DNA from: Gammaproteobacteria bacterium
Lineage (GTDB): Bacteria; Pseudomonadota; Gammaproteobacteria; HK1
DNA: 55,986 nucleotides
Direction: 5' to 3'
Assembly: GCA_021773795.1 (NCBI GenBank)
Contig: JAJFJT010000033.1
Span: forward strand, 1 to 55,986
Of the stretch, positions 5-17,200 are shown piece by piece. A program made the position numbers and the translations under genes. How positions within the stretch are numbered: position 1 is the stretch's first letter; each line of letters opens with the position of its first letter. Under the pieces are notes generated by a model that was not told the DNA's origin, ran no database searches, and saw nothing but the letters and a program-made list of their open reading frames with translations.

Positions 5-1105
5 ATGAAAAAAACTAAATTTAACAAAAGCTTAGTGGCTATCGGTTTCAGCCTTGCGGGTTTCTCGATGCAGGCGCCAGCCTTCATCGCTGACGGCAAG
101 TTTGACGCCTCGGAAGGCTATTCCCTGGCCTTCGACGTCAGTTTTCTGGTGGATGGTGGTGATGGCGCAACTGTCGATGGCGGGCGACTCTATTTTGGTA
201 CGGACTCCGCTGGCTCGGGCGATCACTTCATGTATTTCGCTATGCCCAAGGACTTTGTTGATAATAGCTTCGGCGTCAACGCCGTGGGATGGGGAAGCAA
301 AGGGCATACTTTCAAGGACTTGCTAAATAGCGATTCTTTGGGTGGCGACGGCACTAATGCCTCCATGAGCTTTAATACGGAGGGAGGCGTCCTCGACATT
401 GTCATCGACTATCTCGCTCAAGGTCAGTCTAACCCCATTGTCTTCCAGTCCGGTGGAGTGGGTGACTCAGGTTATACCAAGAACGATGGTGAGGTGGTGT
501 CTGGAGATGCGACGGTGATCAAGGAGATTGCCACCTCAATGGAATATAACATTACGCAATTTGTCTCTCAGGCTGACATCGACGCTACGGCCGCTGATAC
601 CAAACATCCCGTTGGGCGTCTTAAGGATTCCCCCGTGGTTACCGGCGTAGACGGCGCGGGTAATTACGTGGTGGACCTCGTGGCGAGTCCCGGTTTAGCC
701 AATTGGATCTTTGAGGTCGGCTACGAGATCCAGTTTGAAGCCGGAACCTTTGGTGCCGGTTGGACCGATGCAAGCCAGGCGCTCAGCTTTGTGTCGCTGG
801 GAGATTCTCATGTCTCGCCGTCCAAAGTGGGCTTCGGCGGCAATATTATAGGCGACTGTGTCGGTGATTCGGATACAAGCTCGGATACTGGTTGGGACTC
901 CGGCTATGACTCGGACTCGGATTCGGACTCGGGCGGGGACTCGGATTCAGGTGCGGACTCCAGCACGAGTTCAGGTACGGACTCCGGGGGCGCGTGTGAC
1001 TCGGGGGGGACACCGGGAGTGCCGGAACCGGGCACCCTGCTGCTACTGGGTTCTGGTCTCGTGGGAATGGTATTGAGCCGTCGACGCCGGTGGTTGGTGG
1101 CCTAG
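5..1105 (+). CDS. PEP-CTERM sorting domain protein with Asp/Ser-rich tract
   Basis: This 366-residue protein has a signal peptide (about residues 1-27, MKKTKFNK then a hydrophobic run to ...APAFIAD). A probably beta-rich, Gly/Asp-rich body follows. Residues about 290-335 form a low-complexity tract dominated by Asp, Ser and Gly (DSDSDSDSGGDSDSG). The C-terminus is a textbook PEP-CTERM signal: VPEP at 339-342, a hydrophobic helix, then RRRR. In this family an exosortase cleaves at the PEP motif and the protein goes to the outer surface or exopolysaccharide matrix. The start at base 5 leaves only four upstream bases, so its promoter and ribosome site lie outside the window. It is convergent with a glycosylation operon that includes PrsT. 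The Ser-rich tract is a plausible glycan acceptor, which is inference. The body itself is not recognised. Confidence 0.9.
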   Translation: MKKTKFNKSLVAIGFSLAGFSMQAPAFIADGKFDASEGYSLAFDVSFLVDGGDGATVDGGRLYFGTDSAGSGDHFMYFAMPKDFVDNSFGVNAVGWGSKGHTFKDLLNSDSLGGDGTNASMSFNTEGGVLDIVIDYLAQGQSNPIVFQSGGVGDSGYTKNDGEVVSGDATVIKEIATSMEYNITQFVSQADIDATAADTKHPVGRLKDSPVVTGVDGAGNYVVDLVASPGLANWIFEVGYEIQFEAGTFGAGWTDASQALSFVSLGDSHVSPSKVGFGGNIIGDCVGDSDTSSDTGWDSGYDSDSDSDSGGDSDSGADSSTSSGTDSGGACDSGGTPGVPEPGTLLLLGSGLVGMVLSRRRRWLVA

Positions 1106-1147
1106 GTCGGTACCTATGTAAGAAAAGGTCTTCCAATCGGAAGTTTG

Positions 1148-1187
1148 AAAAAAAGCCCGCAACTTTTAAGTTGCGGGCTTTTTTTTT
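1148..1187. terminator. Bidirectional Rho-independent terminator
   Basis: A near-perfect stem (GCCCGCAACTT paired with AAGTTGCGGGC) is flanked by an A-run on the left and a T-run on the right. It can end transcription of the PEP-CTERM gene and act for the convergent operon. The following 166 bases up to the next stop codon show no further gene. Confidence 0.92.
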
Positions 1188-1353
1188 GGTTTATCGCAGA
1201 AGACAAAGAGATATCAGTGCCAGCGATCGTTGGTACTTTTCCTGTTTCGGGTGATGGTGAGTTAGCGCTGTTCCTTATCAAGTTAATAGTTATAGCTGCA
1301 CAGTCATCGCTGATGCCTTTCAGCCATACCATGTTTCGTACAGAAGCTGTTTG

Positions 1354-4300
1354 CTACAGCTTCTGCCAGGCTGTAAACCAGCGCAGGCTATCATGCCATG
1401 CTTCGGATGCGGGTAGCCCTGATGTGGCGGGATAGAAGAGTACAAACAGGCCGACAACGGTTGCCCCATAACTGGCCATGAGGGTTCGGTTTTGCCAGGC
1501 GCGGGGATCCAGCCGGGAGAGCAGATAGCTCAGGCCTAAGATAAGGATCGGAATGTGCGGGTAGTAGGCGTACAGGAAGGTGGGGCGTTCCACCAGGAGC
1601 CAGGGTAGAAAGGGCAGAAAATAGGCGCCGGAGAGCAGCAGGCTAATACGGTTTCCACCCTTCAGTGCCCGCCACCCCAGTCCGAGCATCAGCAGCACTC
1701 CAGGCCACCAGATCGCCGGATTGCCCAGTACGCTGATTGTCGAACGTATTCCCTGCGGGGAGTTGCCGCCAATAAATATCTCCGTCAGGGGCTTCACCAA
1801 CGTGGGCCACAGATAGAAGGGGACGCTGAGTGAGTGAGTCGACAGCGCCTTATGACCACCGTGGTAGCCCAGAATGAAGTTTTGTTGGTGCCAGAATGCC
1901 CTCAGACCTGCCATGGAGAGCAGGGCGGGTTGTTCGGGGAGTGCAGACAAAAATTCCCAGTGACTGAGGTAATAGATCAGCGCTGGCAGCAGAATAAAGC
2001 CCAGTGTCCAGGCACCGGCATGGGGCAGAGTCTCGTTGAGCAGACGGGCCCTCAATAGTCGCGACTGCGGAGCTGTGCCTTCCGGTGTGTTGGCCAAGCG
2101 CACCAACTCGCGTCCCAGCACCAGTAGAAAAATGGCAAAGCCCATGAATAAGGCGCTCCATTTGATGGAGGCGGCAAGTCCGAAGCAGAGCCCGGCAAGG
2201 ATAAACCAGGGCACACTTCGACGATGAAATTGCCCATGGTCGAGGCGAAACCAGCGATAGAGGCCTAGCAGAGTAGCGCTGAGAAAGAAGACCAGAAAGG
2301 TATCGATATTCGCCATACGCCCAATGCTGAAGGGCATGCATTCGAAGATGAAAAGCAAAGCTGCCGAGTAAGCCCCCAAGCGCCGACCAGTCAACTCCCG
2401 GCCCGCAAAAAAGAGCAACAAGGGCATCAGTGCTGTGACCAGTGCGGTGCTGAAACGCCAGCCAAAAGGGCTCATGTCAAAGAGTCGGATTCCCAGCCCT
2501 ATGAGGCTCTTGCCAAGCGGTGGATGGGTTTTTTCGTAGGGTGCTACGCTGTTGACGAGGTTGTGTGCGGAACGGGCGTAGTACACCTCGTCCCAGTAGC
2601 TGTTGCCACGGTAATCGTCGATTTCCCCGATGCTTTGTTGCTCATCAAAGAGGGGATGCTGACTGGCCGGGCGGGGAAAGGTTGTGCCCCCCTGAATGGC
2701 TACGATCTCATCTGGAAGTAATCGCTGGCCGTCCACGCCCTGCAATTCCAGTTCATTGAGTACTGCACCGTGGCCAGTGATTCGAAGCTGCAATCGGCTA
2801 AGTTCAACGGCCTCAAAGTGGCGGGCGTGATTCTTGAAGCTGGCCCGGTATTTTACTTTTGTAGGATATCTAAGCTTGCCCTGATTGGCAGGCCACAGTG
2901 GCTGCCAGCGTTCATCCTGCCAGTGTTTAAAGCCCAGCATCGGGCCGGTTTCTCCACCGTAGAAGGCAAGACCAGTCAGCTTTTGGGGATGGTTGAAACG
3001 GAGTTCAAGAAGCACGGATTTCGCCTCAACACTGAGACCATTCGTGGGGTATTTATAGGCGCCAAGATTGCTGAATAATAACCCCAGAGCGAGCAAGAAA
3101 AGTGCCAGCAGGCCGGCATAATCAAGGCTGCGCAGGGAAAAAGTTCGGGCTTCTGCAGGGCGCATTGGCAAGGTGAAATAGGTGTTTAGCACCTGCCATG
3201 TGGCCTTTGCACGGGTTGATAGGTGGTGAGCCAGGCTGCGCAGTTGTGCGCTATGTCTGCTCCACTCGTTGCCTGCTTCAAACAGCAATAGCATGCCAAG
3301 CCCGATGCTGGCCGCGCGGCTGACCGGACTCACCAGCAGCGATTCCATACGCAGATGCTCGACCGCGTGGTATTCCAGGGCAAGCTTGAAAAACACCAGC
3401 GAGGTCAGGCCCAGATAAATCCACTGGTGACGGGGCCCACGCAGCAGCAAGGGGGTCATGAACATGAGGACGGGCAGCCACTCCCGCCCGTGGCTTTGGG
3501 GTAGTAACAGGGCGACAGCAAAGCTGAGGAAAAAAAAGTTCGGCAGCAGTTCGGGCTGAGTGGATGTTTCCCGGGTGGATGCATCGGACAGCATCCAGGC
3601 TATCAGTAGGGCGAGCAGGCCAAGGGTCAAGCCCAATCGCCAGTCGAAATGGCTGATTACGGTTGCCATGCTCTGCCAGAGATCAGCGGGGGTGTCATTA
3701 AGGCCCGGCACCATGGCCAGCAGGATAAACACCGCAACAGCGGTAAGGACACCGCGACGGCGTTGCCGTAGATCGCCAAAGCGCCAGCCATAAGAGACAA
3801 AGAACAGAGACAAAATCATCCACAAGGGGCTGAGAGAGCAAGAGGCTGCCCACAGCGCCCAGGCGCTGATTTGCTGTCCCCGGGCGTGCAAGACGGCGAT
3901 CGAGACCCACAAGGCGGTGATGATGGCGCTGCCCAGGCCGGAGAAGGCCGAGGCTATGATGAGTGCCGGATTCAAGATCAGTAGCAGGCCGATGATCCAG
4001 GTGCTCTGCCCACGTATGCGCTCGCGTAAGTGTTCCAGCAACAGGGCTGCAGCCAGTAGATCCAGGAGGATGAAGGGGAGCTTGAGCACTACGGTGAAGG
4101 CCGCCCCGGGTTGCTGCCACTGGAGGGCCTGCACCAAAGTACCTGACCACTTCAGAACCAGGCCGTAGAGCAATGGATAGTGAGCCGCCAGTTCCGGCGG
4201 GTGTGAGGTGGCACGGCCAAGGGCGAAGTCTTTCAGGGTAATAATTTCGCTTTCCAGCCCGGTATAGGGGCTGGCAATGAGGCGAATGGCGAAGCCCGCA

Positions 4301-5070
4301 ACGATGAGTAGCCAAAAACCCGGATTTTTCCAGAGTGTTTGCAGAGCAGGACTGGTTTCACTTGGGCCGCTGAGTTGTCCGCCACGTCGCAGGAAAACCA
4401 GGAAGGCCAACAGGTAGCTAATCAGGCCTAAAAAAATGTAGAGGCGCAGGGGCATGGATGATTTTCTTTTCCTGGCCTGTTGAAGCTGGATACTTTGATA
4501 GGAGCCATTCCAGGTTTCCAGTTCCTCGATCCGTACTTCATCGAACCAGGCGGTGCCCGTCGCCGTGGCATCCCAATAGCCCAGTCGCAGGGAGAAAGGG
4601 AGTTTTCCTGTTTCGTTGCTCAGAAATACCTGTTCCACCAGGGTCCACGGCGTATCGCCTGTCAGTATCCCGGGACTGCGGTTATAGCTGCCATACACTG
4701 AGAGATTGGCACCTACCTTGCCTTCGACCTCGTGTGTTTTTACCCAGGCGGAGAAGCGGTAATAACGTCCGGCGTAAACGGGAACAGAGACTTGCCGGCG
4801 GAGATCATTGGGCATGGACGCGTGCAGGCGAAAACTGCTGGCCGAACCGTGATGTATCTCTTTATCGACCTTGAGTTGGCCGTGTTTTTTCCATGCGCGG
4901 GAGTCGGCCGGGCCGTACAGCTCGTATAGATTTCCGGCGCGCAGTGGTGGTGTGGCGTTGCACAGGCCGCTGTAGAGCAGGGCGCAGAGTAGTGTCCACC
5001 ACAGGGCGCCCAAGGGGCGTGGTCGACGATAGAACTTCAAATTTTTCCTCCGGCCTTGACAAGATTCCAA
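1354..5070 (-). CDS. Giant two-module GT-C glycosyltransferase (PMT/GT39-like) with N-terminal carbohydrate-binding-like domain
   Basis: At 1238 residues this is much longer than usual single GT-C enzymes. A signal anchor (about 20-40) precedes a beta-sandwich resembling carbohydrate-binding modules (about 45-185, ending in AWFDEVRIEELE). After a membrane helix (about 208-225) comes a first polytopic GT-C-like region (about 250-640). An extracytoplasmic beta-rich insert (about 680-800) and a second polytopic region follow. The second region is the clearer PMT/ArnT-like one: WDEVYYARSAHNLV near residue 827 matches the acidic first-loop motif, followed by KTHPPLGKSLIGLG. Such enzymes transfer sugars from polyprenyl phosphate to protein or lipid acceptors on the periplasmic face. 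The ATG overlaps the deacetylase gene by 34 bases, so it is the last gene of the PrsT-GtrA-GT2-deacetylase operon. The acceptor is unknown; the nearby PEP-CTERM protein is a candidate. Confidence 0.82.
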   Translation of the reverse strand: MESCQGRRKNLKFYRRPRPLGALWWTLLCALLYSGLCNATPPLRAGNLYELYGPADSRAWKKHGQLKVDKEIHHGSASSFRLHASMPNDLRRQVSVPVYAGRYYRFSAWVKTHEVEGKVGANLSVYGSYNRSPGILTGDTPWTLVEQVFLSNETGKLPFSLRLGYWDATATGTAWFDEVRIEELETWNGSYQSIQLQQARKRKSSMPLRLYIFLGLISYLLAFLVFLRRGGQLSGPSETSPALQTLWKNPGFWLLIVAGFAIRLIASPYTGLESEIITLKDFALGRATSHPPELAAHYPLLYGLVLKWSGTLVQALQWQQPGAAFTVVLKLPFILLDLLAAALLLEHLRERIRGQSTWIIGLLLILNPALIIASAFSGLGSAIITALWVSIAVLHARGQQISAWALWAASCSLSPLWMILSLFFVSYGWRFGDLRQRRRGVLTAVAVFILLAMVPGLNDTPADLWQSMATVISHFDWRLGLTLGLLALLIAWMLSDASTRETSTQPELLPNFFFLSFAVALLLPQSHGREWLPVLMFMTPLLLRGPRHQWIYLGLTSLVFFKLALEYHAVEHLRMESLLVSPVSRAASIGLGMLLLFEAGNEWSRHSAQLRSLAHHLSTRAKATWQVLNTYFTLPMRPAEARTFSLRSLDYAGLLALFLLALGLLFSNLGAYKYPTNGLSVEAKSVLLELRFNHPQKLTGLAFYGGETGPMLGFKHWQDERWQPLWPANQGKLRYPTKVKYRASFKNHARHFEAVELSRLQLRITGHGAVLNELELQGVDGQRLLPDEIVAIQGGTTFPRPASQHPLFDEQQSIGEIDDYRGNSYWDEVYYARSAHNLVNSVAPYEKTHPPLGKSLIGLGIRLFDMSPFGWRFSTALVTALMPLLLFFAGRELTGRRLGAYSAALLFIFECMPFSIGRMANIDTFLVFFLSATLLGLYRWFRLDHGQFHRRSVPWFILAGLCFGLAASIKWSALFMGFAIFLLVLGRELVRLANTPEGTAPQSRLLRARLLNETLPHAGAWTLGFILLPALIYYLSHWEFLSALPEQPALLSMAGLRAFWHQQNFILGYHGGHKALSTHSLSVPFYLWPTLVKPLTEIFIGGNSPQGIRSTISVLGNPAIWWPGVLLMLGLGWRALKGGNRISLLLSGAYFLPFLPWLLVERPTFLYAYYPHIPILILGLSYLLSRLDPRAWQNRTLMASYGATVVGLFVLFYPATSGLPASEAWHDSLRWFTAWQKL

Positions 5071-5900
5071 TAATTTATGAGCTCGATATTCAGATGTTTT
5101 ACGGCATCAAGGGTGGCGGGATCGGCGAGCGCCTTAAGCTCCGCCTCGTGCTGGTAGCCCCAATGGGCCTGGGGCGAGTGAGGATCCGGGTACCCGGGAT
5201 GGCACATGAGTTCGCTACTGCCGTGCTCAGGCAGATCAGCCAACAGGCTATGCAGTCGTCCGCTATCCAGTTGGCCCCCGAGGAAGAAGCCAATGAAATG
5301 ATCCGCGTGAATAAGAGCCGGCTCTTTGTTCAGGTGCCAAAGGGCATTCAGGACGAGTAGTTGGGCCAGTCGTGGAAGCTTGTCTGGTCGGCGCAGCATG
5401 TAGGGGCAGGGGCGTTCGCAGGGAAAGCGTATGGCTGGGATGTCAAAGCGTCGGGCCAGCTCTTCGGCAATGCGGCGCAGTGCCGGTAGGGCATGCAGGT
5501 GCTGATGGCTATCAAGGTGGCTGGGACTGATTCCAGCGTCGAGAATACGAGTGATTTGTGCGGTCCATTCCCGGCGCACTTCGTTGAGATCGATGGCCCT
5601 GCGCAGATAGACTTTGATGAAGTCCATGGCGTGCGGGTGAAAGTGGCCCTCGGCATCCACCAGGCTCGGTATCTGTTTGGCTGGGAGTATTGATGGTGCC
5701 TCGCCCACCAGACTGAGGTGAACACCGAGATCGAGGTTGGTCGCTGATCGTCGAAGTTGCAAGGCGTGCTTGAAGGCGATCCCGCCGGCCATTATCGAGG
5801 TGGAGGTCAGGATGCCGTGGCGATGTGCCTGCAAGATCCCATCGTTGATGGCCTTGGAGAGGCCAAGATCGTCACCATGGACGATGAGGACTCGCTTCAA
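5037..5900 (-). CDS. ChbG/HpnK (YdjC-like) family carbohydrate deacetylase
   Basis: This 287-residue protein has the family's metal-binding motifs: HGDDLG at residues 8-13 and SHLDSHQHLHALP near residue 130, with LGVHLSLVGEAP between them. Family members remove acetyl groups from N-acetylated sugars (chitooligosaccharides for ChbG) or act in hopanoid-associated clusters (HpnK). Here the gene starts 7 bases after the GT2 stop and overlaps the GT-C gene, so it probably de-N-acetylates a lipid-linked sugar made by its neighbours. No hopanoid genes are seen nearby, so the hpnK name is not justified. It has no signal peptide and so acts in the cytoplasm. Confidence 0.88.
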   Translation of the reverse strand: MKRVLIVHGDDLGLSKAINDGILQAHRHGILTSTSIMAGGIAFKHALQLRRSATNLDLGVHLSLVGEAPSILPAKQIPSLVDAEGHFHPHAMDFIKVYLRRAIDLNEVRREWTAQITRILDAGISPSHLDSHQHLHALPALRRIAEELARRFDIPAIRFPCERPCPYMLRRPDKLPRLAQLLVLNALWHLNKEPALIHADHFIGFFLGGQLDSGRLHSLLADLPEHGSSELMCHPGYPDPHSPQAHWGYQHEAELKALADPATLDAVKHLNIELINYWNLVKAGGKI

Positions 5901-5907
5901 AATAACC

Positions 5908-6936
5908 TCACCTTTCTGTGCGCTGCTTCATCCCACCTGGCTGCCTTGTGGAGTAGCCCGTAGATGATGTTGGCGGTGAGCTGCTCTTGTTCAAACCGAG
6001 ATGTTCGCTGATAAGGAAACGTGGTCGGCCGCGTACCTCAATGAGGATTCGCCCAATGTATTCCCCCAGCACTCCGAGCAGAATGAATAGCACGCCGAAC
6101 AGGAAGGAGATAATTGCAATGGAGGAAGCCCAACCAGGGACCGCCTGGCCGATGATGAGTTTGCTATAGATGGCATAGAGGATGCCCAAAAAGGACAGTC
6201 CGCTGGTAATGAAGCCGATTAAGACACCGATGCGCAGGGGGACCAGAGAGAAGGAGCTAAGCCCGTGCCAGGCGAATTGGAGCATTTTGCGCGGTGTGTA
6301 CTTGGTGACACCGTGCCAGCGACGCTCGGACTGAAAGCTAATCTTGCTGCTTTTGTAGCCCACCCATTGGACTATGCCCCGCAGAAACAATCCTTCTTCA
6401 CGCATCTTCAGAATGTCATTGACTACCTGGCGATCCAGCAGGCGAAAATCAGCCATTCCTGGTTCCAGTGGCACGCCACTGAGAAATGAAAATAGCCGGT
6501 AATAGAGTCGGGATGTGTAGCGTTTGAAGGCGCTGAAATCATCCGGGTCCAGACGCACGGTATTGACCACCTTATGCCCTGACTGCCACTGCTGGAATAA
6601 TTCTGGCAGTAGCGCTGGTGGATGCTGGAGATCAGCATCCATGGAAATGACGGCATCCCCCGTAGCACGTTGTAATCCAGCGAACAGGGCATATTGATGA
6701 CCGAAATTACGCGATAGCCGGATCCCCTTGATGCGGGGATTGATCTGGTTCAGGGATTCAATTTTTCCCCAGGTGTCATCACTGCTGCCATCATCGATGA
6801 AGATAATTTCCCAGCGTGCCGGCAATTCACTGAGTACAGACTCCAGTTTCTGTTGCAACGGTTCCAGATTCTCGGCCTCGTTATAGGCCGGGATGATGAT
6901 GGAGATGGACAGGGTGGGTGCTTGGGCTTTGGGCAA
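5908..6936 (-). CDS. Glycosyltransferase family 2, polyprenyl-phosphate sugar synthase (DPM1/ArnC/GtrB-like)
   Basis: This 342-residue GT-A enzyme begins with SISIIIPAYNEAENLEPL. It carries FIDDGSSDDT (nucleotide-sugar binding) and the catalytic metal motif MDADLQHP near residue 120. Two C-terminal membrane helices (about 232-260 and 268-298) anchor it, as in GtrB and ArnC. The known reaction is transfer of a hexose from a nucleotide sugar to undecaprenyl phosphate on the cytoplasmic face. It lies 18 bases after the gtrA-like gene and just before the deacetylase. This pairing (GT2 plus GtrA plus GT-C) is the standard three-component module: synthase, flippase, periplasmic transferase. The sugar cannot be told from the sequence. 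Confidence 0.9.
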   Translation of the reverse strand: MPKAQAPTLSISIIIPAYNEAENLEPLQQKLESVLSELPARWEIIFIDDGSSDDTWGKIESLNQINPRIKGIRLSRNFGHQYALFAGLQRATGDAVISMDADLQHPPALLPELFQQWQSGHKVVNTVRLDPDDFSAFKRYTSRLYYRLFSFLSGVPLEPGMADFRLLDRQVVNDILKMREEGLFLRGIVQWVGYKSSKISFQSERRWHGVTKYTPRKMLQFAWHGLSSFSLVPLRIGVLIGFITSGLSFLGILYAIYSKLIIGQAVPGWASSIAIISFLFGVLFILLGVLGEYIGRILIEVRGRPRFLISEHLGLNKSSSPPTSSTGYSTRQPGGMKQRTER

Positions 6937-6954
6937 TGTGTATGACTCCGTCGC

Positions 6955-7347
6955 TTATCTTGCCGTGCTGGCCGCTCGTTCCCGGAACGACCAGAGATAG
7001 TTTCCCGTAAAATTCCACATCAATACTACACCGGTGGCCGCTAGCTGGGCCCACAGATAATGTAGCTCCAGGTAGTGCATTACCATTGTCAGTACCGTGC
7101 CGTTAAGGGCAAGCCCTGCGAGGGCTACGAGGATGAACTTGCTATAAGCGGCAGGGTGTTGTTGGGTACTTTGGAAGGTATAACGATAGTTGAGGGCATA
7201 GTTGAAGCCCGAGGAAACAGCGAAGCCGATGGAAGATGCGAGGACCTCGGCCAGCGTGAAACCCTCAACCAGGATCAGCAAAATGGCATAGTGCAAGGCT
7301 GTGGCGAAAGTGCCCACAAAGGCAAAGCGCAGAAACTTTCCTAACAT
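6955..7347 (-). CDS. GtrA family membrane protein (polyprenyl-phosphate sugar flippase)
   Basis: A 130-residue protein with four predicted membrane helices and the GtrA signatures LRFAFVGTFATALHYAILL at the N-terminus and SGFNYALNYRYTF in the middle. GtrA proteins are thought to flip lipid-linked glucose or a similar sugar across the inner membrane. It sits between prsT and the GT2 gene in the same direction with short gaps (27 and 18 bases), so it is probably co-transcribed and supplies the periplasmic transferase. Confidence 0.88.
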   Translation of the reverse strand: MLGKFLRFAFVGTFATALHYAILLILVEGFTLAEVLASSIGFAVSSGFNYALNYRYTFQSTQQHPAAYSKFILVALAGLALNGTVLTMVMHYLELHYLWAQLAATGVVLMWNFTGNYLWSFRERAASTAR

Positions 7348-7374
7348 GGCGGGCTTTCCATCATGGTTGGATTA

Positions 7375-10182
7375 TTATTTCTTATCCAGTTTCTGTGCGA
7401 GCGCCTGGGCCAACCCCCGTTCCGCAAAGTTTTCCTTTAACTTTAATAATTTAGTTAACTCCCGTTTAGCCTCCTTATCCCGGCCCAGACGGTTAAGGGC
7501 GACTGCCAGATGGTAGAGAATGCCGGGTTTACGCGCGGCGCGGGAGCGAGCCTCGCGCAGGAAACGAAGTGCCTTGCCCGGTTCACCCATTTGCACCAAT
7601 ACCCAGCCATAGGTATCTAATGCAGCCGCCTGTTTAGGAGCGAGTTGGTAAGCCCTCTCGGCGTGGTAGAGCGCACGTGCATCATTGTTTTGAAGGTAGA
7701 GATTGGCAAGATTGTTGAGAATGGCGGCATCATCGGGCAACGCCTTAACCAGCCGTTCGTGCTCGCGGATAGCGTCGGCTAAACGCTTGCTTTCCCCATA
7801 TCCGGAGGCCAATGCCCGGCGTACTTCGTGATCGTCGGGATGGGCTGCCAGCCATTGCTCCGCCAGTTTCAGGCCCTGATTCAACTGCCCATTGGCTTTG
7901 TGGGCTTTGTACAGGCGCACTACGAGAATAGGGCTTGCCTTTTTCGCCTGCCCGGTTTGATAGGATTTCAGTGCCTCTTTGTAGCGCTTCATTGCCACCA
8001 GTGCGTCACCGGCAAGGAGCTCACCCACGGAATTTTCTGGATGACTCTGCTGCAGTCCATGTGCACGTTTGAGGGCCTCTTCATATTTTCCAAGGCGCAG
8101 CTCTACCCGCACCATCGCGGTCACCCCTGGAAGATAGCCGGGCTTCCCCTCCAGCGCCTTTAGTAGCGACCAGTGGGCACCATCGAAATCATCCAGGGCA
8201 ACCTGGTAGCGACTGATACGTAGCAGGTGACCCGCTGCAAAACCGGCAAATTTGGTCATGCGCCGGAAGGTGACCATGGCCTTGTCTCGCGCTCCCGCGG
8301 CAAGCTCCGCACGCCCAAGAGCTGTAAGTACCGGCAGGCTGCGGGGGTGTTTTTGCTCTAACTCATGTGCAAGGGTGAGAGCCTTTTTAGGCATGCCCGC
8401 CTGCAGATAGAGCTCTCCCAAATCCAGCTGGGCGGATAATTGATTGCTATCCATTGCCTGTAATTTTTCCAGCCAGCGGATGGCCCCGGGAAGCTGCCCT
8501 GCATCCTTGGACATACGTGCCAGTTCTTCCATGGCACGGGTTTCTGCCGGCGCCAGTTGGAGAATTTCCAGATAGCGGGCCTTCGCTTCTTTCAGGCGAG
8601 AGGCGGCAATGTCCATCTTGGCCAGGTTATAGCGGGCTGGCAGATAGCTGGCATTCACTGCGATGGCCTGATTAAAGGCCTGGCGTGCAGCCTTTGTTTT
8701 CCCACCTGCCAAGTGGATGGTGGCTAACAGATTATGGGCAGTGGGATTCGTAGGCTGATGTTTGAGGGTACGCAAGGTGCTTTTCAGGGCCTCCGGATAG
8801 TTGCCCTGTTTGAGTAGTATGGTGCCTAGGAGCACGCCTGAACGTCCGCTGGAATCAAGGCCAAATGCAGTTTCCAGATCGGCTACTGCGGAAGCCCGCT
8901 GACCGGTGGCTAGTCGGCTCAAGGCCAATTGGGTACGCAGGGAGGCAAGACTGGGGGCGAGCTTGGCCGCATTCTCGAAGTATCGGGTGGCCTTGGTAAA
9001 GTCCCTCGTACCCATGTACGCACTCCCAAGCAGGCCATGGAGCTGTGCATTCTTGGGTGCAAAGCGTAAGGCCTGTTCCAGGGTCTTGATGGCCTGTGCA
9101 TGTTTTCCCCGACGTATCAGCAGGTTCCCCAATAAAATGCGTCCGCCCACATGGTGGGGCACCAGCTTCATAAAACGCTGGATCTCCTCATAGGCGGAGT
9201 CGTATTTTTCCTCCGCGTGATGAATGACCGCTGATAACAGCAGGCTGGGTGGGTGACTGAAGAGGAAATCACGACCCTTGCTGAGCAGGGTAATGCCCGC
9301 CGTACGCAATACCGCCTGAGCCTCGGCAAGCTGATCGGCCTGGGCCAGCACCATGGCATGGAGATAGCTCGCTTGCGGGTCATAGGGATGCCGATCGCGG
9401 ACCAGTTCCAGTTCCGTGATCGCCTCTTCCTTTCTTCCGAGATCGAGTAGTGCCGCAGTTTTTCCTATGCGCGCCCGAAAATGTTTTTCGTAGAGTGTGA
9501 GGGCCTTATCGTAATATTGGATAGCCCCTTCCAGATCCTGGCGGATGCGACGGATCTCTCCTTTGACATACCATGCTCCGGCACTCTCGGGGGTGATGGA
9601 CGTGGCCTCATCGGCAAGGTCTTCGGCACCCTCATGGTCACCACGCTGGAGCAGCACGGTGGCTTGGCCGATGATGGGGTCTGCGTTATCCGGGGTCAGG
9701 CGGGCCGCCAAGGCAAAATCTATTTCTGCTTCCTTCAGCTGGCGCAGTTGCACGCGAGTCTCGCCACGAATGACGGCCAGAGCAGACTCGGTTTCGGGAT
9801 GACGTCGGCCGGCCGGGAACTTGTCGAAGATCTGCTTGTGCTTGCCTTGTAGTAAATAGGCCTTGGCCAAAGGAACCAGCACCAGATTTTCATCCGCTCC
9901 AGAGGCCAGCGCGACCCTTAGTTCCTTCTCTGCATTGGCACCATCTTCCTTGCTGAGATAGACGCGACCGAGTAGCAGGCGTGCCGGAAGGTGTTCTGAG
10001 TCCAGCTTGAGTGCATTCTTTAGCTGAATAATGGCCGCATTATGCTCGCCCTCCGTGTAACGGCTTTGGGCATCTTCGTAGAATTCCGAGGGGGTACTTG
10101 GTGCGGCGGATACTGACAGGCTCATGAGCAGGGCCAGGAGCCCTGAGATCCATGAAGACTGTTTCCGAGAGTGGAATTTCAT
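7375..10182 (-). CDS. prsT: PEP-CTERM system TPR-repeat protein PrsT-like
   Basis: A 935-residue protein made almost wholly of tetratricopeptide repeats after a signal peptide (about 1-26, ending SVSAAPS). The opening repeats (ARLLLGRVYLSKEDGANAEK) and the overall length match the PrsT family, which co-occurs with exosortase/PEP-CTERM loci. Some family members are lipoproteins; this one shows no lipobox cysteine, so it is probably periplasmic and soluble. PrsT is presumed to scaffold export or assembly of surface glycan and PEP-CTERM proteins. It heads the glycosylation operon (GtrA, GT2, deacetylase, GT-C), a direct link between sorting and glycosylation here. Between it and the GAPDH stop are 119 bases with no clear sigma-54 site. 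Confidence 0.88.
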   Translation of the reverse strand: MKFHSRKQSSWISGLLALLMSLSVSAAPSTPSEFYEDAQSRYTEGEHNAAIIQLKNALKLDSEHLPARLLLGRVYLSKEDGANAEKELRVALASGADENLVLVPLAKAYLLQGKHKQIFDKFPAGRRHPETESALAVIRGETRVQLRQLKEAEIDFALAARLTPDNADPIIGQATVLLQRGDHEGAEDLADEATSITPESAGAWYVKGEIRRIRQDLEGAIQYYDKALTLYEKHFRARIGKTAALLDLGRKEEAITELELVRDRHPYDPQASYLHAMVLAQADQLAEAQAVLRTAGITLLSKGRDFLFSHPPSLLLSAVIHHAEEKYDSAYEEIQRFMKLVPHHVGGRILLGNLLIRRGKHAQAIKTLEQALRFAPKNAQLHGLLGSAYMGTRDFTKATRYFENAAKLAPSLASLRTQLALSRLATGQRASAVADLETAFGLDSSGRSGVLLGTILLKQGNYPEALKSTLRTLKHQPTNPTAHNLLATIHLAGGKTKAARQAFNQAIAVNASYLPARYNLAKMDIAASRLKEAKARYLEILQLAPAETRAMEELARMSKDAGQLPGAIRWLEKLQAMDSNQLSAQLDLGELYLQAGMPKKALTLAHELEQKHPRSLPVLTALGRAELAAGARDKAMVTFRRMTKFAGFAAGHLLRISRYQVALDDFDGAHWSLLKALEGKPGYLPGVTAMVRVELRLGKYEEALKRAHGLQQSHPENSVGELLAGDALVAMKRYKEALKSYQTGQAKKASPILVVRLYKAHKANGQLNQGLKLAEQWLAAHPDDHEVRRALASGYGESKRLADAIREHERLVKALPDDAAILNNLANLYLQNNDARALYHAERAYQLAPKQAAALDTYGWVLVQMGEPGKALRFLREARSRAARKPGILYHLAVALNRLGRDKEAKRELTKLLKLKENFAERGLAQALAQKLDKK

Positions 10183-10301: not shown

Positions 10302-11747
10302 TTAATAATAACGAGGCCGCTCCACCCCAGAGATAACCCGTGCCACGCGCGTGGCCTGGGTGGAATAACCGTATTCGTTGTCATACCAGACGTAGATAAT
10401 CACGTGTTGCTTGTGCACCTTGGTGGCGAGCGAATCGACGATGGCCGGATGGTTATTGCCGATCATGTCGCTACTGACCACGTCTTCATCACGGGTGTAG
10501 TCGATCTGTGAGGCAAGGGGACCGCTCAGAGAGGCCTGGCGTAACGCATCGTTAATCCCCTCGCGGGTAACTGTTTGCTTCAGCTCCATACTGAGGATCG
10601 CCAGCGAGACGTTGGGTGTGGGCACACGCACGGCGTTGCTGGTCATTTTTCCCGCCAGTTCCGGCATAGCCTTGGCGGCGGCAGTGGCGGCACCGGTTTC
10701 CGTGAGCACCATGTTCAGTGGCGCCGAGCGTCCGCGCCGCTGTTTCTTGTGGTAGTTGTCGAGCAGATTCTGGTCGTTGGTGTAGGCATGCACGGTTTCG
10801 ATGTGACCGGAATGGATACCGAAGTGGTCATTGAGCACCTTCAAGGGAGGGGCGATGGCGTTGGTGGTACAGGAGGCGGCGGAGAAGATGTGCTCGTCCG
10901 CATCCCAGCCATCGGTATTGACCCCGTAAACGATGTTGGGGATATCTTCCTTGCCCGGCGCCGTAAGCAGAACCCGTTCCACCCCACGGGCCTCCAGGTG
11001 TTTGCCAAGCTCTGCACGGGTGCGCCAGATGCCGGTGTTATCGATAACCAGGGCGTTGTGGATGTCGTATTGCTCGTAGTCGACACTTTCCGGCGTGTTG
11101 GCGGAGATGAACTGGATGTAATGGCCATTAACCACAAGAGCCTGTTCCTGCTCACGAATCTCGATGTGACCGTGAATCAGACCATGCACAGAATCCCGTT
11201 TTAACAGGTTGGCGCGCTTGTACATGTCGAGCTTGCCTCTACAGACCACCGCACGCAGACGCAGGGCATCACTGGCACCCCCACGGGCCAGTAGGATGCG
11301 CGCCAGCAACCGGCCAATACGTCCAAAGCCATAGAGCACCACATCGCGGGAATCAGTGCTGCAGGCGTTGTTTGGTTTGAGATGCTCACCCAATCTGGAC
11401 TTGAGGAAATCCCTGAGGCCCATTTCAGAATTTGCAGCCTGTTGTGCCCGCCATTCCAGTGCCAGACGACCGATGTCTATGGTGGAGGGGCACAGTGACA
11501 GAGAGGCCAGGCTGTCGATAATCGGCAGCGTATCCTGAATGCGCAATTTGGTTTGGGAGATCTGGCTGGCGTAGTTGTGGTGCGCGAGGACTTCCACCGT
11601 CCCTTCGTCTACCAGGACACGGCGAAATAGCATCAGTTCGACGGAGTGCTCGCTCCAGAGCTGGTGAATGATGCTGATAGCGCGTGCCGCCAGTTGCTCT
11701 CCTTCAATCCAGCTATTGAGCTCCTGAGTATATTTTTTGTTGGCCAT
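10302..11747 (-). CDS. gap: Glyceraldehyde-3-phosphate dehydrogenase, long (about 480-residue) form
   Basis: The start at 11747 (MANKKYTQEL) has a good ribosome site (AGGAG, 8 bases upstream); an earlier in-frame start would overlap the Smr gene. It gives 481 residues, about 150 more than classical GapA because of an N-terminal extension of about 125 residues (HQLWSEHSVELMLFRRVLVD). That extension is typical of the long GAPDHs of pseudomonads and relatives. The NAD-binding motif YGFGRIGRLLARILL and the catalytic SAASCTTNAIAPPLKVL are intact. It oxidises glyceraldehyde-3-phosphate with phosphate and NAD(P). The long form is often linked to gluconeogenesis. It follows the Smr gene in the same direction by 71 bases. 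Confidence 0.93.
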   Translation of the reverse strand: MANKKYTQELNSWIEGEQLAARAISIIHQLWSEHSVELMLFRRVLVDEGTVEVLAHHNYASQISQTKLRIQDTLPIIDSLASLSLCPSTIDIGRLALEWRAQQAANSEMGLRDFLKSRLGEHLKPNNACSTDSRDVVLYGFGRIGRLLARILLARGGASDALRLRAVVCRGKLDMYKRANLLKRDSVHGLIHGHIEIREQEQALVVNGHYIQFISANTPESVDYEQYDIHNALVIDNTGIWRTRAELGKHLEARGVERVLLTAPGKEDIPNIVYGVNTDGWDADEHIFSAASCTTNAIAPPLKVLNDHFGIHSGHIETVHAYTNDQNLLDNYHKKQRRGRSAPLNMVLTETGAATAAAKAMPELAGKMTSNAVRVPTPNVSLAILSMELKQTVTREGINDALRQASLSGPLASQIDYTRDEDVVSSDMIGNNHPAIVDSLATKVHKQHVIIYVWYDNEYGYSTQATRVARVISGVERPRYY

Positions 11748-11818
11748 GATGTTGCTCCTGTCCGTGGTATTTGCGAGGGCTACTGGGAGTAATTTCCTGA
11801 GTATAGTTAAGAAGCTGG

Positions 11819-12358
11819 CTATCGTTTTAGCAGTACGTAGACCGCACCGGTGCCGCCATCGTTGCCTCGTGCGGAGCAAAAGGCCACCACCTCCAGACGC
11901 TGGCGTAACCAGTGGTCAAGCTGCATCTTTAGCACGGGTTTTCCATCGCGGGAGCTAAGGCCCTTGCCATGGATGATGCGCGCGCAGCGGATGCCACGGG
12001 TACGGCAGTCAGCAAGGAAAGAGGCCAGTGCATTTCTCGCTTCGCGCACGATCATGCCGTGCAGGTCGAGTTCCGCTCCAATATTGAACTGGCCTCGGCG
12101 CAGTTTTCGGATCAAGCGCTGCTGCAGGCCCGGCCGGGCAAAGAACAAGGTGTCTCCCGCCGCTATTTCACTCCATTCCAGCTCCTGATCCTGGAGTCCT
12201 CCATCCATAGGTGTGGCATCGGTCGGGTGCCGCTGAGGATGGGGGCCGGGCTGTTTGGACTGTGGTATTACCCGATCATCATGGAGCCGCTGCACCGGCC
12301 CTACGCTTTGCCGGAATAGCTCGCGGTCATCGCTGGATGAGGGGGTGCGCTTGGCCAA
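11819..12358 (-). CDS. Smr (small MutS-related) domain protein
   Basis: A 179-residue protein whose C-terminal half is an Smr domain: LDLHGMIVREAR, the HGKGLSS motif and the ending GGTGAVYVLLKR. Smr domains have nicking endonuclease or RNA-cleavage activity; the stand-alone YdaL/SmrA-type role in gammaproteobacteria is poorly defined. The N-terminal 90 residues are polar and probably disordered. A TTG start is preceded by GGAG at suitable spacing. It lies between msrQ and gap, all on the minus strand. Confidence 0.88.
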   Translation of the reverse strand: MAKRTPSSSDDRELFRQSVGPVQRLHDDRVIPQSKQPGPHPQRHPTDATPMDGGLQDQELEWSEIAAGDTLFFARPGLQQRLIRKLRRGQFNIGAELDLHGMIVREARNALASFLADCRTRGIRCARIIHGKGLSSRDGKPVLKMQLDHWLRQRLEVVAFCSARGNDGGTGAVYVLLKR

Positions 12359-12389
12359 GGAAGTACTCCAGAGGGGAACGTGGGGCAGT

Positions 12390-13010
12390 CTAACCGCGTG
12401 TAGTCGGCGGCTTCAACCGGCTGCGCAATCGCGTGATCCAGGGCTCCAGTGCCGGCAGGCGCAGGATATAAAGGCTGGTAAGGACACAAAGATAAATCAG
12501 CGGGTCACGGTAATCGGCCTTGGTGAGCCAGAAGAAATGTAACAAGGCAGTGCCGGCGGCAAGGTAGATCAGTTGATGGAGTTGCTTCCAACGTCCTCCA
12601 CCCAGACGTTTTTGCATGCCGTGGGTGGAGGTCAGGGCCAGCGGCAGCAACAGCAGAAAAGTGCCGAAGCCGACGAGGATATAGCGGCGTTTGCCAAGAT
12701 CTTCGAGGATGTCTGCCCAGGAAAAAAACTGCTCCAGCCAGAGCCAGGTGGTGAAATGGAGGCAGGCATAGAAGAAGGCGTAAAGCCCGAGCATACGGCG
12801 CAGACGCACAACGCCGCTCCAGCCGGTGCATTTTCTCAGTGGGGTGATGGCCAGGGTGATCAACAAAAAGCGCAGCGTCCAGCGCCCGCTACGGAAGGTG
12901 ATTTCTTCTACCAGGTTGGCGCCGAGAGCGTCGTGGAAGCCGTCCCATATTCCCAGGGCGAGGGGGACGAGGGCGGTAATGAAAACAATCGCTTTAAGTG
13001 GGGTATACAT
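12390..13010 (-). CDS. msrQ: MsrQ, heme-binding membrane subunit of the MsrPQ methionine sulfoxide reductase
   Basis: From the ATG at 13010 the protein is 206 residues, the usual MsrQ length. It has six membrane helices and a ferric-reductase-like fold: FRSGRWTLRFLLITLAITPL, RRMLGLYAFFYACLHFTTWL and KRLGGGRWKQLHQLIYLA, with His residues placed to bind heme. MsrQ passes electrons from the quinone pool or flavin reductase to periplasmic MsrP. A GTG at 13049 would extend it by 13 residues but lies inside a palindromic repeat, so 13010 is preferred. msrP is 120 bases upstream in the same direction. Confidence 0.92.
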   Translation of the reverse strand: MYTPLKAIVFITALVPLALGIWDGFHDALGANLVEEITFRSGRWTLRFLLITLAITPLRKCTGWSGVVRLRRMLGLYAFFYACLHFTTWLWLEQFFSWADILEDLGKRRYILVGFGTFLLLLPLALTSTHGMQKRLGGGRWKQLHQLIYLAAGTALLHFFWLTKADYRDPLIYLCVLTSLYILRLPALEPWITRLRSRLKPPTTRG

Positions 13011-13040
13011 ATGCGCTGTTTCATCTAGCCACGGCAGCAA

Positions 13041-13109
13041 GGCAGACACGGTCTACCCTACACGTAGCCCCTGCTTCTGGGGAGTATCGTAGGGCGGACC
13101 ATGTCTGCC
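13041..13109. repeat. Intergenic palindromic repeat, family B (diverged copy)
   Basis: The arms are GGCAGACACGGTCTACCCTA (from 13041) and GTAGGGCGGACCATGTCTGC (from 13089). They form a 21-bp inverted repeat with three mismatches around a 27-base spacer. The same consensus recurs at 32587-32647. It lies between msrP and msrQ and could fold as a hairpin in their mRNA. Confidence 0.82.
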
Positions 13110-13130
13110 TTATGGTCGCCACGAGGGGTA

Positions 13131-14042
13131 TCAATAGTGTTTCCGCAGATCCATCCCCGTGTACAGCGAGGCGACTTCCTTGGCATAGCCATTAAATGGC
13201 AGGGTGGGGCGTTTGAAGATGTCGCCGATGCGCCGTTCTTTTTTCTGGCTCCAGCGCGGGTGGTCTACCGCCGGATTGACGTTGGCATAGAAGCCGTAGT
13301 GATCCGGGCCCTGCAGGTTCCATGTGGTGGGTGGTTCGCTTTCGGTGAATTCAATAGAGACGATGGACTTGATGCTTTTGAAGCCGTATTTCCACGGCAC
13401 CACCAGGCGGATGGGTGCGCCGTTCTGGTTGGGTAGCGGCTTGCCGTAGAGTCCGGTAGCGATCAGGGTGAGGGGATGCATGGCCTCGTCCATGCGCAGA
13501 CCCTCGCGATAGGGCCATGGCAGGATGTCACGCCGTTGGCCGGGCATTTCGGCCGGGCGCAGCAGGGTGCGGAAGGCGACGTAACGTGCCTTTGATGTGG
13601 GGGCAAAGCGCTTGAGGATTTTCCCCATCGGTACACCTTGCCAGGGAATCACCATGGACCAGGCCTCGACACAGCGCAGGCGGTAGATCCGCTCCTCCAC
13701 TTCTGCCGCCTTAATCAGATCGGCCAGGTCGTAGTTTCCGGGATGCTCACAGGCCCCGGAGACGGTGATGCTCCAGGGGTGGGTGCTTAATGCACCAGCA
13801 TGTATCCCGGGGGAACCTTTGCTGGTGCCGAATTCGTAGAAATTGTTGTAGCGGGTGATGTCCTTGAGGCGGGTGAGTTCTTCTGTAGTGCTGTAGCGGC
13901 TGGCTGCGGAGGCCAGGCTGGCGGGTATGGCGGTTAGAAGTGCGGTCCCTATGCCGCGTTGAATAAAACGCCGGCGGTCGAGGTAGATCGCCTCGGGGGT
14001 AATCTCTGAGGCCCGAATCTGCTCAGGGTTTTTGATCAACAT
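13131..14042 (-). CDS. msrP: MsrP, periplasmic molybdenum-dependent protein-methionine-sulfoxide reductase
   Basis: This 303-residue protein has a twin-arginine signal ([15 protein letters not shown] at 22-36) and the YedY/MsrP core. The molybdenum-ligating cysteine is Cys124 in [17 protein letters not shown], and the pterin-pocket segments include [18 protein letters not shown]. It repairs oxidised methionine in envelope proteins with electrons from MsrQ. Length and motifs are normal for the family. It is transcribed toward msrQ. A family A palindrome separates it from purL. Confidence 0.95.
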
Positions 14043-14070
14043 ACGTGGGCTCCCCCTTCGTATAAGAATG

Positions 14071-14174
14071 GTAGCCTGGATGGAGCGGCAGCGGAATCCG
14101 GGGATATGGAAACAAGGTTAGCCGCTACGCTGAACGGCGTGTTCCCGGATTTCACGCTGTTTCATCCAGGCTAC
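14071..14174. repeat. Intergenic palindromic repeat, family A, copy 1
   Basis: This 104-bp element starts GTAGCCTGGATGGAGCGG, contains CGGAATCCGGGG and ends TTTCATCCAGGCTAC. The ends are inverted complements. It lies between msrP and purL. Copies 2-4 are at 22538, 34971 and 44443. Confidence 0.9.
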
Positions 14175-14216
14175 AGGTGCTGCTGGCTGAAACAGTGTAA
14201 GCCCATACGACGTTTC

Positions 14217-17200
14217 CTACCCCAGTGTATGGCGGGCGTTGCGGAACATGCGCAGCCACGGGCCGTCCTCACCCCATTCGTCCGGATGCCATGAGTGCTG
14301 GACGGTGCGGAACAGCCGTTCCGGGTGGGGCATCATGATGGTGACACGGCCATCGGTGCTGGTCATGCCGGTAATGCCTTGTGGTGAGCCGTTGGGGTTG
14401 GCGGGATAGCGGCTTGCTACTGCCCCGTGATTATCCACGTAGCGCAGGCAGGCCCGCTGATCCGCAAGGGCTTTTTCGGGGCCGGTCGTCGAAGCAAAAT
14501 CGGCTTGTCCCTCGGCATGTGCCACTGCCACGGGTAGCCGTGAACCGGCCATGTCAGACAACAGTAGCGACGGGCTTGGCAGGATTTCCACCAGGCTCAA
14601 GCGGGCCTCGAATTGTTCCGAGCGATTGCGTACGAAGCGTGGCCAGTCTTCGGCGCCGGGAATGAGCGAGCCGAGGCGGGCCAGCATCTGACAGCCGTTG
14701 CACACCCCCAGGCTGAAGGTATCGGCTTGCTGGAAAAAGCCCTCGAACTGCTCCCGTGCCCGTGGGTTATGAAGGATGGAATTGGCCCAGCCCCGGCCGG
14801 CGCCGAGGACATCCCCGTAGGAGAAGCCACCGCAGGCCACCAGGCCCTGAAATTCACTCAGGCGGGTGCGGGCCTCAAGAATGTCGCTCATGTGCACATC
14901 GATGGCATCGAAGCCGGTGCGGTCAAAGGCCGCCGCCATTTCCACGTGGCCGTTGACTCCCTGTTCGCGAAGCACGGCAATACGTGGGCGGGCCTTATGG
15001 ATATAGGGCGCCGTAATGTCTGCTGCCGGGTCGAAGCAAAGCTTTGCGGAAAGGCCAGGGTCCTTACGATCAAGGATGCGATCGTATTCTTCTTGAGCGC
15101 AGTCGCTCTGATCCCGCAGGGCCTGCATATGAAAGGTGGTTTCGGACCAGCGGCGCTGCCAGATGATGCGCTCCTCAGCGAGCACGAGTTTGTCTCGCAG
15201 GCGAAATTCAATGCGGTCGTTGTCGTTGGGCGTGCCGATAATATGGACATTGCCCGCGAGCCCGGCATAGCCATTGAGGGTAGTGAGGACCGCATCACGG
15301 TGCTGTGCTGATACCTGTAGCACGGCACCCAGTTCCTCGGCATAAAGGGCGCCCCAGGGCTCGTCACTGAGCTCATCAAGGGTGATGCTGATGCCGGTAT
15401 GACCGGCGAAGGCCATTTCGCACAAGGTGGTGAAAAGGCCGCCATCGGAGCGGTCGTGGTAGGCGAGCAGCCGGTCTGTGGCATTGAGGGTCTGGATGGC
15501 ATGGAAGAAGTCCACCAGTCTCCGGGGATCGTCAAGATCCGGCGGGTTATCACCCAGCTGGTTGTAGATCTGCCCAAGGGCGGAGCCACCCAGGCGGTTT
15601 TTGCCATGCCCCAGATCCACCAGGATGAGCACGGTTTCCCCCGCGTCTCGACGCAGTTCTGGCGTCAAAGTCGCGCGGATGTCCTCCACCGGGGCAAAGG
15701 CAGTGACCAGCAACGACAGGGGTGAGGTCACTTCCCGCGGCATATCGGCCTCGCCCCAGACGGTCTTCATGAACAACGAATCCTTGCCCACGGGAATAGC
15801 GATACCGAGGGCCGGGCACAGTTCCATGCCCACTGCACGCACTGCATCGAACAGGGCGGCATCTTCCCCGGGGTGATTACAGGCGGCCATCCAGTTGGCG
15901 GAGAGCACCACTTGTCCCAGCTCAGGCACGCGCGCCGCTGCCAGATTGGTAAGTGCCTCGCCCACTGCCATGCGTGCCGAGGCCGGGGCATCCAGCAATG
16001 CAACGGGTGCACGCTCTCCTATGGCCATGGCATCTCCCTGAAAACTCTGGAAGCCACTGGCGGTTACCGCGCAGTCGGCCACCGGGATCTGCCATGGGCC
16101 CACCATCTGGTCCCGCGCCACCAGGCCGGTAATGGTGCGATCACCAATGGTGATCAGGAAGGTCTTGTCCGCCACCGTGGGCAGGGCCAGCAGCCGCGTT
16201 GCGGCCTCTGCAAGTTCGGCCTTATCACCGGGAGCAAAGGCCTGACCCAGCGGAGCCCGGTGCGAGGTAACCCGGCGCATGGCGGGGGGATGGGAGAGCA
16301 TGAGATCCAGCGGCAGATCGATGGGGCGGTTGTTGAAAACCGGGTCTTCCATGATGAGCTGCGGTTCTTTAGTCGCTGTGCCGATTTCTGCGTAGGGGCA
16401 GCGCTCGCGTTCGCAGATGCTGACAAATAACTCCATCGCATCGGGGGCCACTGCCAGGGTGTAGCGTTCCTGGGCTTCATTGCACCAGATTTCCAGGGGA
16501 GCCATGCCGGGATCATCATTGTCGATCTTGCGCAGGTTTAATTGCGCGCCCTTGCCATCGTCGTGTACCAGCTCCGGCACACCGTTGGAGAGCCCACCGG
16601 CGCCAATATCGTGGATGGAGAGGATGGGATTGTCCTCTCCCAGCTGCCAACAGGTGTCGATCACCTCCTGACAGCGGCGCTCCATTTCGGGGTTGGCGCG
16701 CTGCACGGAGGCAAAGTCCAACTGTTCCGCGCCCTCACCGGAACTCACCGAGGAGGCGGCACCGCCGCCGAGGCCGATGAGCATCGCGGGACCACCAAGA
16801 ACCACGATATGGGAGGCCGGGGGAATAGAGAGTTTCTCCACCTGGCCCGGGTCCATGGTGCCAATGCCGCCGGCGGCCATGATGGGCTTGTGATAGCCGC
16901 GGATCTCGCTGCCCGCCCGGGTCTTGATGGTTTCCTCGTAGGTGCGGAAATAACCACACAGCGCCGGGCGGCCAAATTCATTATTGAAGGCGGCACCGCC
17001 GATGGGGCCTTCCAGCATGATGTCCAGCGCCGAGGACTGGCGTCCCGGTTTGCCGTTGTCGGCCTCCCAGGGTTGGGTAAAGGCAGGAATACGCAAATTG
17101 GAGACTGAGAAGCCGGTGAGCCCTGCCTTGGTGCGCGAGCCACGGCCGGTGGCGGCTTCGTCACGGATCTCGCCACCAGAGCCGGTGGCGGCACCGGGAT

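Follow-up and report, generated by a model that had tools for sequence, protein, structure and literature searches.

PEP-CTERM proteins are suspected of being glycosylated (PMC7783341; PMC9850573), and Haft et al., writing on PrsT, noted that covalent modification may be guided by tetratricopeptide repeat (TPR) proteins, as in the case of O-GlcNAc transferase (PMC1569441). In the available parts of these three papers no modifying enzyme for PEP-CTERM proteins is named. Within the accessible text of the open literature nothing was found that joins PEP-CTERM with protein O-mannosyltransferase (PMT), and the pairing of exosortase with mannosyltransferase returned only off-topic items. The locus described here lies at one end of contig JAJFJT010000033.1 from a gammaproteobacterium, the whole 55,986 nucleotides of which are referred to as the window. 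A gene for a PEP-CTERM protein with a Ser-Asp tract converges on a minus-strand operon encoding, in order of transcription, a PrsT-like TPR protein, a GtrA-type membrane protein, a family 2 glycosyltransferase (GT2), a YdjC/ChbG-family deacetylase and a PMT-like glycosyltransferase of the GT-C type; the last four are referred to as the module.

The preferred interpretation, to which a probability of about one half is given, is that the operon is a lineage-specific cassette dedicated to lipid-linked O-glycosylation of the adjacent PEP-CTERM protein. It is favoured because of the gene content and order, the tight packing, the PMT motifs, the XrtA context, the purifying selection on the genes, and the way in which module and tract occur, or are missing, together among related species. 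The GT2 would make a polyprenyl-phosphate sugar, most likely an N-acetylhexosamine, from which, or from a product of which, the deacetylase would strip the acetyl group. GtrA would flip the lipid-linked sugar, and outside the inner membrane the PMT domain would transfer it to Ser or Thr residues of the tract, either ahead of XrtA cleavage or at about the same time, while the co-transcribed PrsT-like protein may hold the substrate.

Module and tract compared across three species

All three species listed for the genus were compared: the source genome (G000; 2.56 Mb in 36 contigs, 99% complete, with the window being contig C27 in full), G185 (Gammaproteobacteria metagenome-assembled genome (MAG) OFTM67, the only named relative matched by the PMT protein) and G111 (99% complete). 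Orthologs of the PrsT-like protein (92% identity in G185, 79% in G111) and of the PEP-CTERM protein (86% in G185, 75% over residues 1-286 in G111) are present throughout, and the surrounding genes are also common to the congeners, with PurL, ferric-reductase-like, molybdopterin protein, Smr and GAPDH genes before PrsT. Both the gene arrangement and the tract of G185 are as in the window. In G111 the PrsT-like and PEP-CTERM orthologs are direct neighbours separated by 507 bp, with none of the four module genes between them, and the PEP-CTERM ortholog reads ...GDC-ILGPEPE-C... straight into the PEP motif, the tract being gone and both of its flanking cysteines kept. The G111 genome gave no match to the PMT protein (E ≤ 1e-5) or the PMT_4TMC family, none to the deacetylase at E ≤ 1e-15 and none to the GT2 at E ≤ 1e-10; GtrA is missing from between the two orthologs and was not searched for genome-wide there.

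As G111 is equidistant from the other two species (79% and 79% for PrsT, 72% and 73% for the PEP-CTERM protein, against 92% and 86% between G000 and G185), module and tract must either both have been gained toward G000 and G185 or both have been lost in G111. This coupled gain or loss lends some support to the proposal of an earlier note on this DNA that the tract is decorated by the module, but it is a single comparison, and neither a statistic nor a proof. Between G000 and G185, the PEP-CTERM gene and the five operon genes have dN/dS ratios of 0.045-0.202, the neighbouring GAPDH-domain gene standing at 0.087, and all six are under purifying selection.

The stretch separating the PrsT and PEP-CTERM genes of G111 (L040, contig C9, 9730-10236) contains an inverted-repeat sequence that by eye resembles a small element of the repetitive extragenic palindrome (REP) or miniature inverted-repeat transposable element (MITE) type, and which is possibly a scar of module gain or loss. 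Further along (11687-15514), a second PrsT-family gene scores 619 bits, and a sigma-54-like site scoring 12 of 12 accompanies a second PEP-CTERM gene.

The operon and its presumed substrate

All six genes were recovered where the earlier note had placed them, with matches to family profiles, and the gaps between the operon genes of 27, 18 and 7 nucleotides, followed by a 34-nucleotide overlap, make a single transcript likely. Table 1 lists the features; a terminator-like element of a similar kind is also present in G185.

Table 1. Features of the locus, with positions given in the window
Feature	Position	Strand	Basis
PEP-CTERM surface protein, 366 residues, signal peptide-like start; presumed substrate	5..1105	+	PF07589 and TIGR02595 over cut-off
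Ser-Asp tract, residues 286-330; presumed glycosylated region	860..994	+	composition; present in G185, absent from G111 ortholog
PEP-CTERM sorting signal: PEP, hydrophobic stretch, Arg-rich end	1019..1087	+	sorting-signal match in genome search
Terminator-like inverted repeat carrying A and T runs, located where the PEP-CTERM gene and operon converge	1148..1187	.	read from sequence
Fused GT-C, 1238 residues: N-terminal signal or anchor, weak CBM_4_9-like region, orphan half with multiple transmembrane segments, C-terminal PMT domain (~823-1236)	1354..5070	-	PF02366, PF13231 and PF16192 over cut-off
PMT motifs DE (residues 827-828) and HPPLGK (849-854)	2509..2592	-	alignment with yeast Pmt2 6p25
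YdjC/ChbG/HpnK-family carbohydrate deacetylase	5037..5900	-	PF04794; HGDD, HLDSHQH and CHPG stretches
GT2 polyprenyl-phosphate sugar synthase, GtrB/PgfS-like	5908..6936	-	GtrB and PgfS scores
GtrA-type small membrane protein, presumed flippase	6955..7347	-	PF04138, 92.8 bits
PrsT-like TPR protein, signal peptide-like start, no lipobox	7375..10182	-	TIGR02917

The Ser/Asp-rich stretch reported in the earlier note is confirmed by its composition. Its 45 residues, flanked by Cys285 and Cys331, include 15 Ser, 12 Asp and 4 Thr; Ser and Asp together reach 29 per 46 residues, compared with a mean of 16.8 and a maximum of 25 in 5000 shuffles of the same protein. MSCRAMM models reach only 16.5-18.2 bits against cut-offs of 999-2500, confined to residues 288-328, and the PF07589 match that follows (27.6 bits, cut-off 20.7) covers residues 339-361. 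Asp-rich repeats can bind cations, and the sole length difference between the G000 and G185 tracts lies in the DSDSDS part. An unmodified acidic, flexible or calcium-binding stalk, produced by repeat slippage and unrelated to the operon, is nevertheless an improbable explanation, as the remainder of the tract is nearly identical between the two species despite a dS of 0.66 for the gene, and the species that lacks the module lacks the tract as well.

Across the genus, 38 PEP-CTERM proteins were scored for Ser and Asp content. They comprise all 16 matches in G000, all 10 in G185 and 12 of the 13 in G111, the remaining one, G111:C5:96658, being left out as lying inside the exosortase gene. The tract protein is the richest of the 38. 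It reaches 29 per 46 residues in G000, where the next PEP-CTERM protein has 16, and 25 in G185, where the next has 18; among the proteins scored in G111 the highest value is 18, with the ortholog of the tract protein at 12. PMT systems usually modify many proteins. A general O-glycosylation system might accordingly serve many exported proteins, with the tract one target or none in particular, much as Pgf has at least Cnm and WapA among its surface protein substrates (PMC5856776, available in part), and there are 16 PEP-CTERM matches in G000. This is improbable, given the placing of the module between PrsT and this single PEP-CTERM gene and the finding that no other PEP-CTERM protein, the only class scored, is comparably rich in Ser and Asp.

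With a second PEP-CTERM match in the window (20797-21564, plus strand; 28.9 bits in the genome search), there is a sigma-54-like site 65 bases upstream, and the protein matched no family at E ≤ 1e-5 in a Pfam scan.

By its predicted gene content the source genome holds a genuine XrtA/PEP-CTERM system: contig C23 carries exosortase A (TIGR03109, 245 bits against 208), PrsR (727 bits), PrsK (833 bits), EpsB2 and a chain-length protein, all over cut-off, as are the 16 PEP-CTERM matches. The upstream region of the window PEP-CTERM gene is missing because the gene starts at base 5 of the contig. Orthologs of this gene are preceded by sigma-54-like sites scoring 11 of 12 points, at -97 in G185 (a score reached in 1 of 2000 mononucleotide shuffles) and at -121 in G111 (5 of 2000); in all three congeners, no such site was found within 250 bases upstream of the PrsT-like genes. 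This matches the pattern in Aquincola, where, in the accessible part of the report, pepA adjoins prsT and is RpoN-dependent, with prsT transcription seemingly unaffected (PMC9850573).

The assignment of the first operon gene to PrsT in the earlier note holds as to family, with 668 bits against a cut-off of 312 for TIGR02917, but the N-terminus (MKFHSRKQSS...SVSAAPSTP, by eye) has no lipobox Cys, hence the name PrsT-like used here. Contig C26 carries a second PrsT copy (L042, 8190-11977), with an LGAC lipobox and a TIGR02917 score of 825 bits, above that of the window copy; it is followed by a gene of the NAD-dependent epimerase family, which could supply an epimerised uridine diphosphate (UDP)-sugar. 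Beyond the operon, the minus strand of the window at 10302-14042 encodes a GAPDH-domain protein with a long N-terminal extension, an Smr-domain protein and a ferric-reductase-like and molybdopterin oxidoreductase pair, which we take to be MsrPQ-like; similar genes are present in both other congeners.

The order of reactions from GT2 through GtrA to a PMT-like GT-C, also put forward in the earlier note, agrees with the families found. The GT-C scores 75.7 bits with PF02366 and 48.3 with PF16192 (PMT_4TMC, cut-off 32.4), and a Pfam scan at E ≤ 0.01 returned PMT-type families only, although serotype-specific GT-Cs are too diverse for one scan to rule them out. Alignment with yeast Pmt2 6p25 (E 0.019 for the whole match) locates the DE motif, presumably catalytic, and the HPPLGK motif; among 19 PMT homologs from other genomes, DE and HPxxxK are each conserved in 19. 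The scores of 59.8 bits with the Pmt model and 28.4 with the ArnT model, the latter beneath an equivalog cut-off of 567, likewise class the enzyme as PMT-like rather than ArnT-like. Its N-terminal part matches CBM_4_9 only below cut-off (E = 0.013), and a profile comparison using two query sequences detected no relation of the N-terminal half to the PMT profile (probability 0.3%). That half could still be a degenerate second GT-C. No full-length relative from outside the genus was found in 185 genomes of the class, 94 relatives or a seed-based contig scan.

The deacetylase was taken in the earlier note to be of the ChbG/HpnK type. Membership of the YdjC family is confirmed by its profile score (PF04794, 234 bits), but it falls below the equivalog cut-offs of both HpnK (181 against 232.6 bits) and ChbG (158 against 227 bits). 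The GT2 (PF00535, 113.5 bits) is nearest to GtrB Sll0501 5ekp (253 bits), followed by ArnC (155, or 153-166 across models) and dolichol-phosphate mannose (DPM) synthase (79). With the PgfS model it scores 248 bits, where the cut-off is 500.

Donor units and PMT loci in other genomes

Counts of PMT_4TMC, exosortase and deacetylase were made across a sample of 369 genomes of the class, and neighbourhoods outside the genus were read for the fetched stretches. PMT_4TMC exceeds its cut-off in three genomes and exosortase is present in 126, while PMT over cut-off occurs together with the deacetylase (E ≤ 1e-15) in only two, both of this genus. The general co-occurrence of the five-gene set with exosortase that the earlier note had anticipated is therefore not seen: the third PMT_4TMC genome, G136, has no exosortase match. 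Exosortase occurs in two of the three PMT_4TMC genomes (Fisher p = 0.27, the two being of the same genus) and in 15 of the 29 deacetylase genomes (E ≤ 1e-15; p = 0.043, uncorrected for kinship), and neither association was retained as support.

G136 has a GtrA-GT2 pair and a convergent PMT in one locus and no deacetylase match at E ≤ 1e-15. This compact gammaproteobacterial arrangement (L107, 6758-9715), with a PMT of 452 residues, is a candidate for a plain protein O-glycosylation cassette.

In the wider phylum, 18 PMT loci were fetched from the 21 other genomes over cut-off (G697, G580 and G715 being left out) and queried with the window proteins using phmmer at E ≤ 1e-4. A GT2 relative lies within the fetched stretch at half of them (9/18; about 7 kb away at L146); the deacetylase was found at none (0/18), nor were relatives of PrsT, PEP-CTERM or exosortase (0/18). 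The GT2s near alphaproteobacterial PMTs have 20-24% identity to that of the window, and the two tested out of nine had DPM synthase as their best match (162 and 166 bits). Deacetylase loci were fetched from 10 of the 27 matching genomes outside the genus, and none of the ten has a PMT relative beside the deacetylase. Two do have close counterparts of the window pair, G220 (with GtrA between) and G300, where the GT2 has 59% and 57% identity and the deacetylase 47% and 49%. A GT2 tree groups the window enzyme with these two (support 0.993), the next branch being the PMT-linked GT2 of G136. Since the window GT2 groups with deacetylase-linked enzymes, far from the DPM-synthase-like ones, the comparison suggests that the GT2 product is the substrate of the deacetylase and that this unit became coupled to a PMT, the likeliest reading of the sequences being a unit for an aminosugar donor that has been joined to a PMT. 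The free amine on the sugar and the zwitterionic coat proposed in the earlier note may follow, but are conjectural.

The G220 unit (L110, 4916-9829) is itself downstream of a gene for a 566-residue membrane protein, for which there is no significant Pfam match, and a methyltransferase-like gene.

GtrABC systems also combine GtrA with a GtrB-like GT2 and a GT-C, and in the NaxD pathway for lipid A galactosamine modification a YdjC deacetylase is joined by a GT2 and a GT-C resembling ArnT. The acceptor of the module may thus be a glycolipid or a polysaccharide, whether lipid A, O-antigen or the exopolysaccharide of the XrtA system, with the tract nearby by coincidence. The GT2 scores of 153-166 bits with ArnC fit this alternative, as does G220, in which the GT2-GtrA-deacetylase unit is found among deoxythymidine diphosphate (dTDP)-sugar-type genes (labels by eye) and so can have glycans instead of proteins as its acceptors. 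The transferase domain, however, exceeds the PMT_4TMC cut-off and scores well above ArnT, a PrsT-like gene leads the operon, and module and tract go together in the three congeners, which leaves modification of a glycolipid or polysaccharide unlikely, though a serious contender.

Several observations weigh against a cassette dedicated to the PEP-CTERM protein, including that setting of the G220 unit. Other exported proteins are equally possible targets, and a single coupled event in three species can be coincidence, particularly at a locus as plastic as this one, where G111 additionally carries one PEP-CTERM gene upstream and another PrsT/PEP-CTERM pair downstream. The GT-C score of 59.8 bits is far under the Pmt equivalog cut-off of 800, for which reason the enzyme is called PMT-like and not Pmt, and structure prediction for residues 40-1238 of two sequences gave an unusable predicted local distance difference test (pLDDT) score of 29.8. 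Scans of the class, relatives and phylum, through the stretches fetched, revealed the full combination in no genome outside the genus. Furthermore, only 3 of the 10 fetched deacetylase loci (G220, G300 and G317) have a GT2 relative beside the deacetylase, and the deacetylase-linked GT2 of G317 branches outside the PMT-linked GT2 of G136.

A more specific form of the dedicated cassette, in which the PrsT-family TPR protein acts as an adaptor guiding the fused GT-C/PMT to place a free-amine hexosamine from the lipid carrier on the Ser-Asp tract, is speculative and rather unlikely as a whole. It would yield a stalk of alternating acidic and basic character on the PEP-CTERM protein, and would provide a direct genetic link for the 2006 idea of PrsT as an adaptor for covalent modification. 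The locus supplies candidates for the enzyme set, the adaptor and the acceptor stretch together with a natural negative control, G111, in the same genus, and PEP-CTERM glycosylation is therefore directly testable by mass spectrometry.

Comparison with known systems

The transferase domain resembles PMT enzymes (GT39, PF02366/PF16192) in its DE and HPPLGK motifs, its PMT_4TMC region and the presence of a GT2 in the locus. It differs in that the window protein is 1238 residues long, against 402-613 for 19 homologs (read from the first Met), in having a GtrB/PgfS-like GT2 where the two tested alphaproteobacterial systems have a DPM-synthase-like one, and in the addition of a deacetylase. The NaxD/FlmF2/FlmK pathway for lipid A aminosugar modification similarly combines a GT2, a YdjC-family deacetylase and a GT-C. 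Reviews on Francisella, in their available parts, mention FlmF2 and FlmK. What differs at the present locus is a PMT-like GT-C and the adjacency of PrsT-like and PEP-CTERM genes. Adjacent GtrA and GtrB-like genes are shared with GtrABC systems, but here the third enzyme is PMT-like and a deacetylase has been added.

The SdgA and SdgB enzymes of staphylococci are of a different type from the window GT-C. A Ser-Asp repeat stretch on a sorted surface protein is common to both cases (PMC3794999, available in part), and to this extent the staphylococcal parallel drawn in the earlier note is apt. According to the same source, SdgA and SdgB bind the serine-aspartate repeat (SDR) domain and link N-acetylglucosamine directly, whereas the gene set here implies a lipid-linked donor outside the inner membrane, and their substrates have long repeats, compared with 45 residues here; the parallel is thus one of analogy only. 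Pgf of Streptococcus mutans, as far as its report could be consulted (PMC5856776), is alike in that the window GT2 matches the PgfS model and a surface protein gene adjoins the modifying genes. The window GT2 is, however, below the PgfS cut-off, and the pgf operon has an epimerase and two membrane proteins and lacks a deacetylase. With described XrtA/PEP-CTERM systems the source genome shares XrtA, PrsR, PrsK and EpsB2, a PEP-CTERM gene near a prsT-like gene, and sigma-54-like sites at the orthologs of that PEP-CTERM gene; what sets it apart is that the PrsT-like protein of the window is without a lipobox and heads a glycosyltransferase operon.

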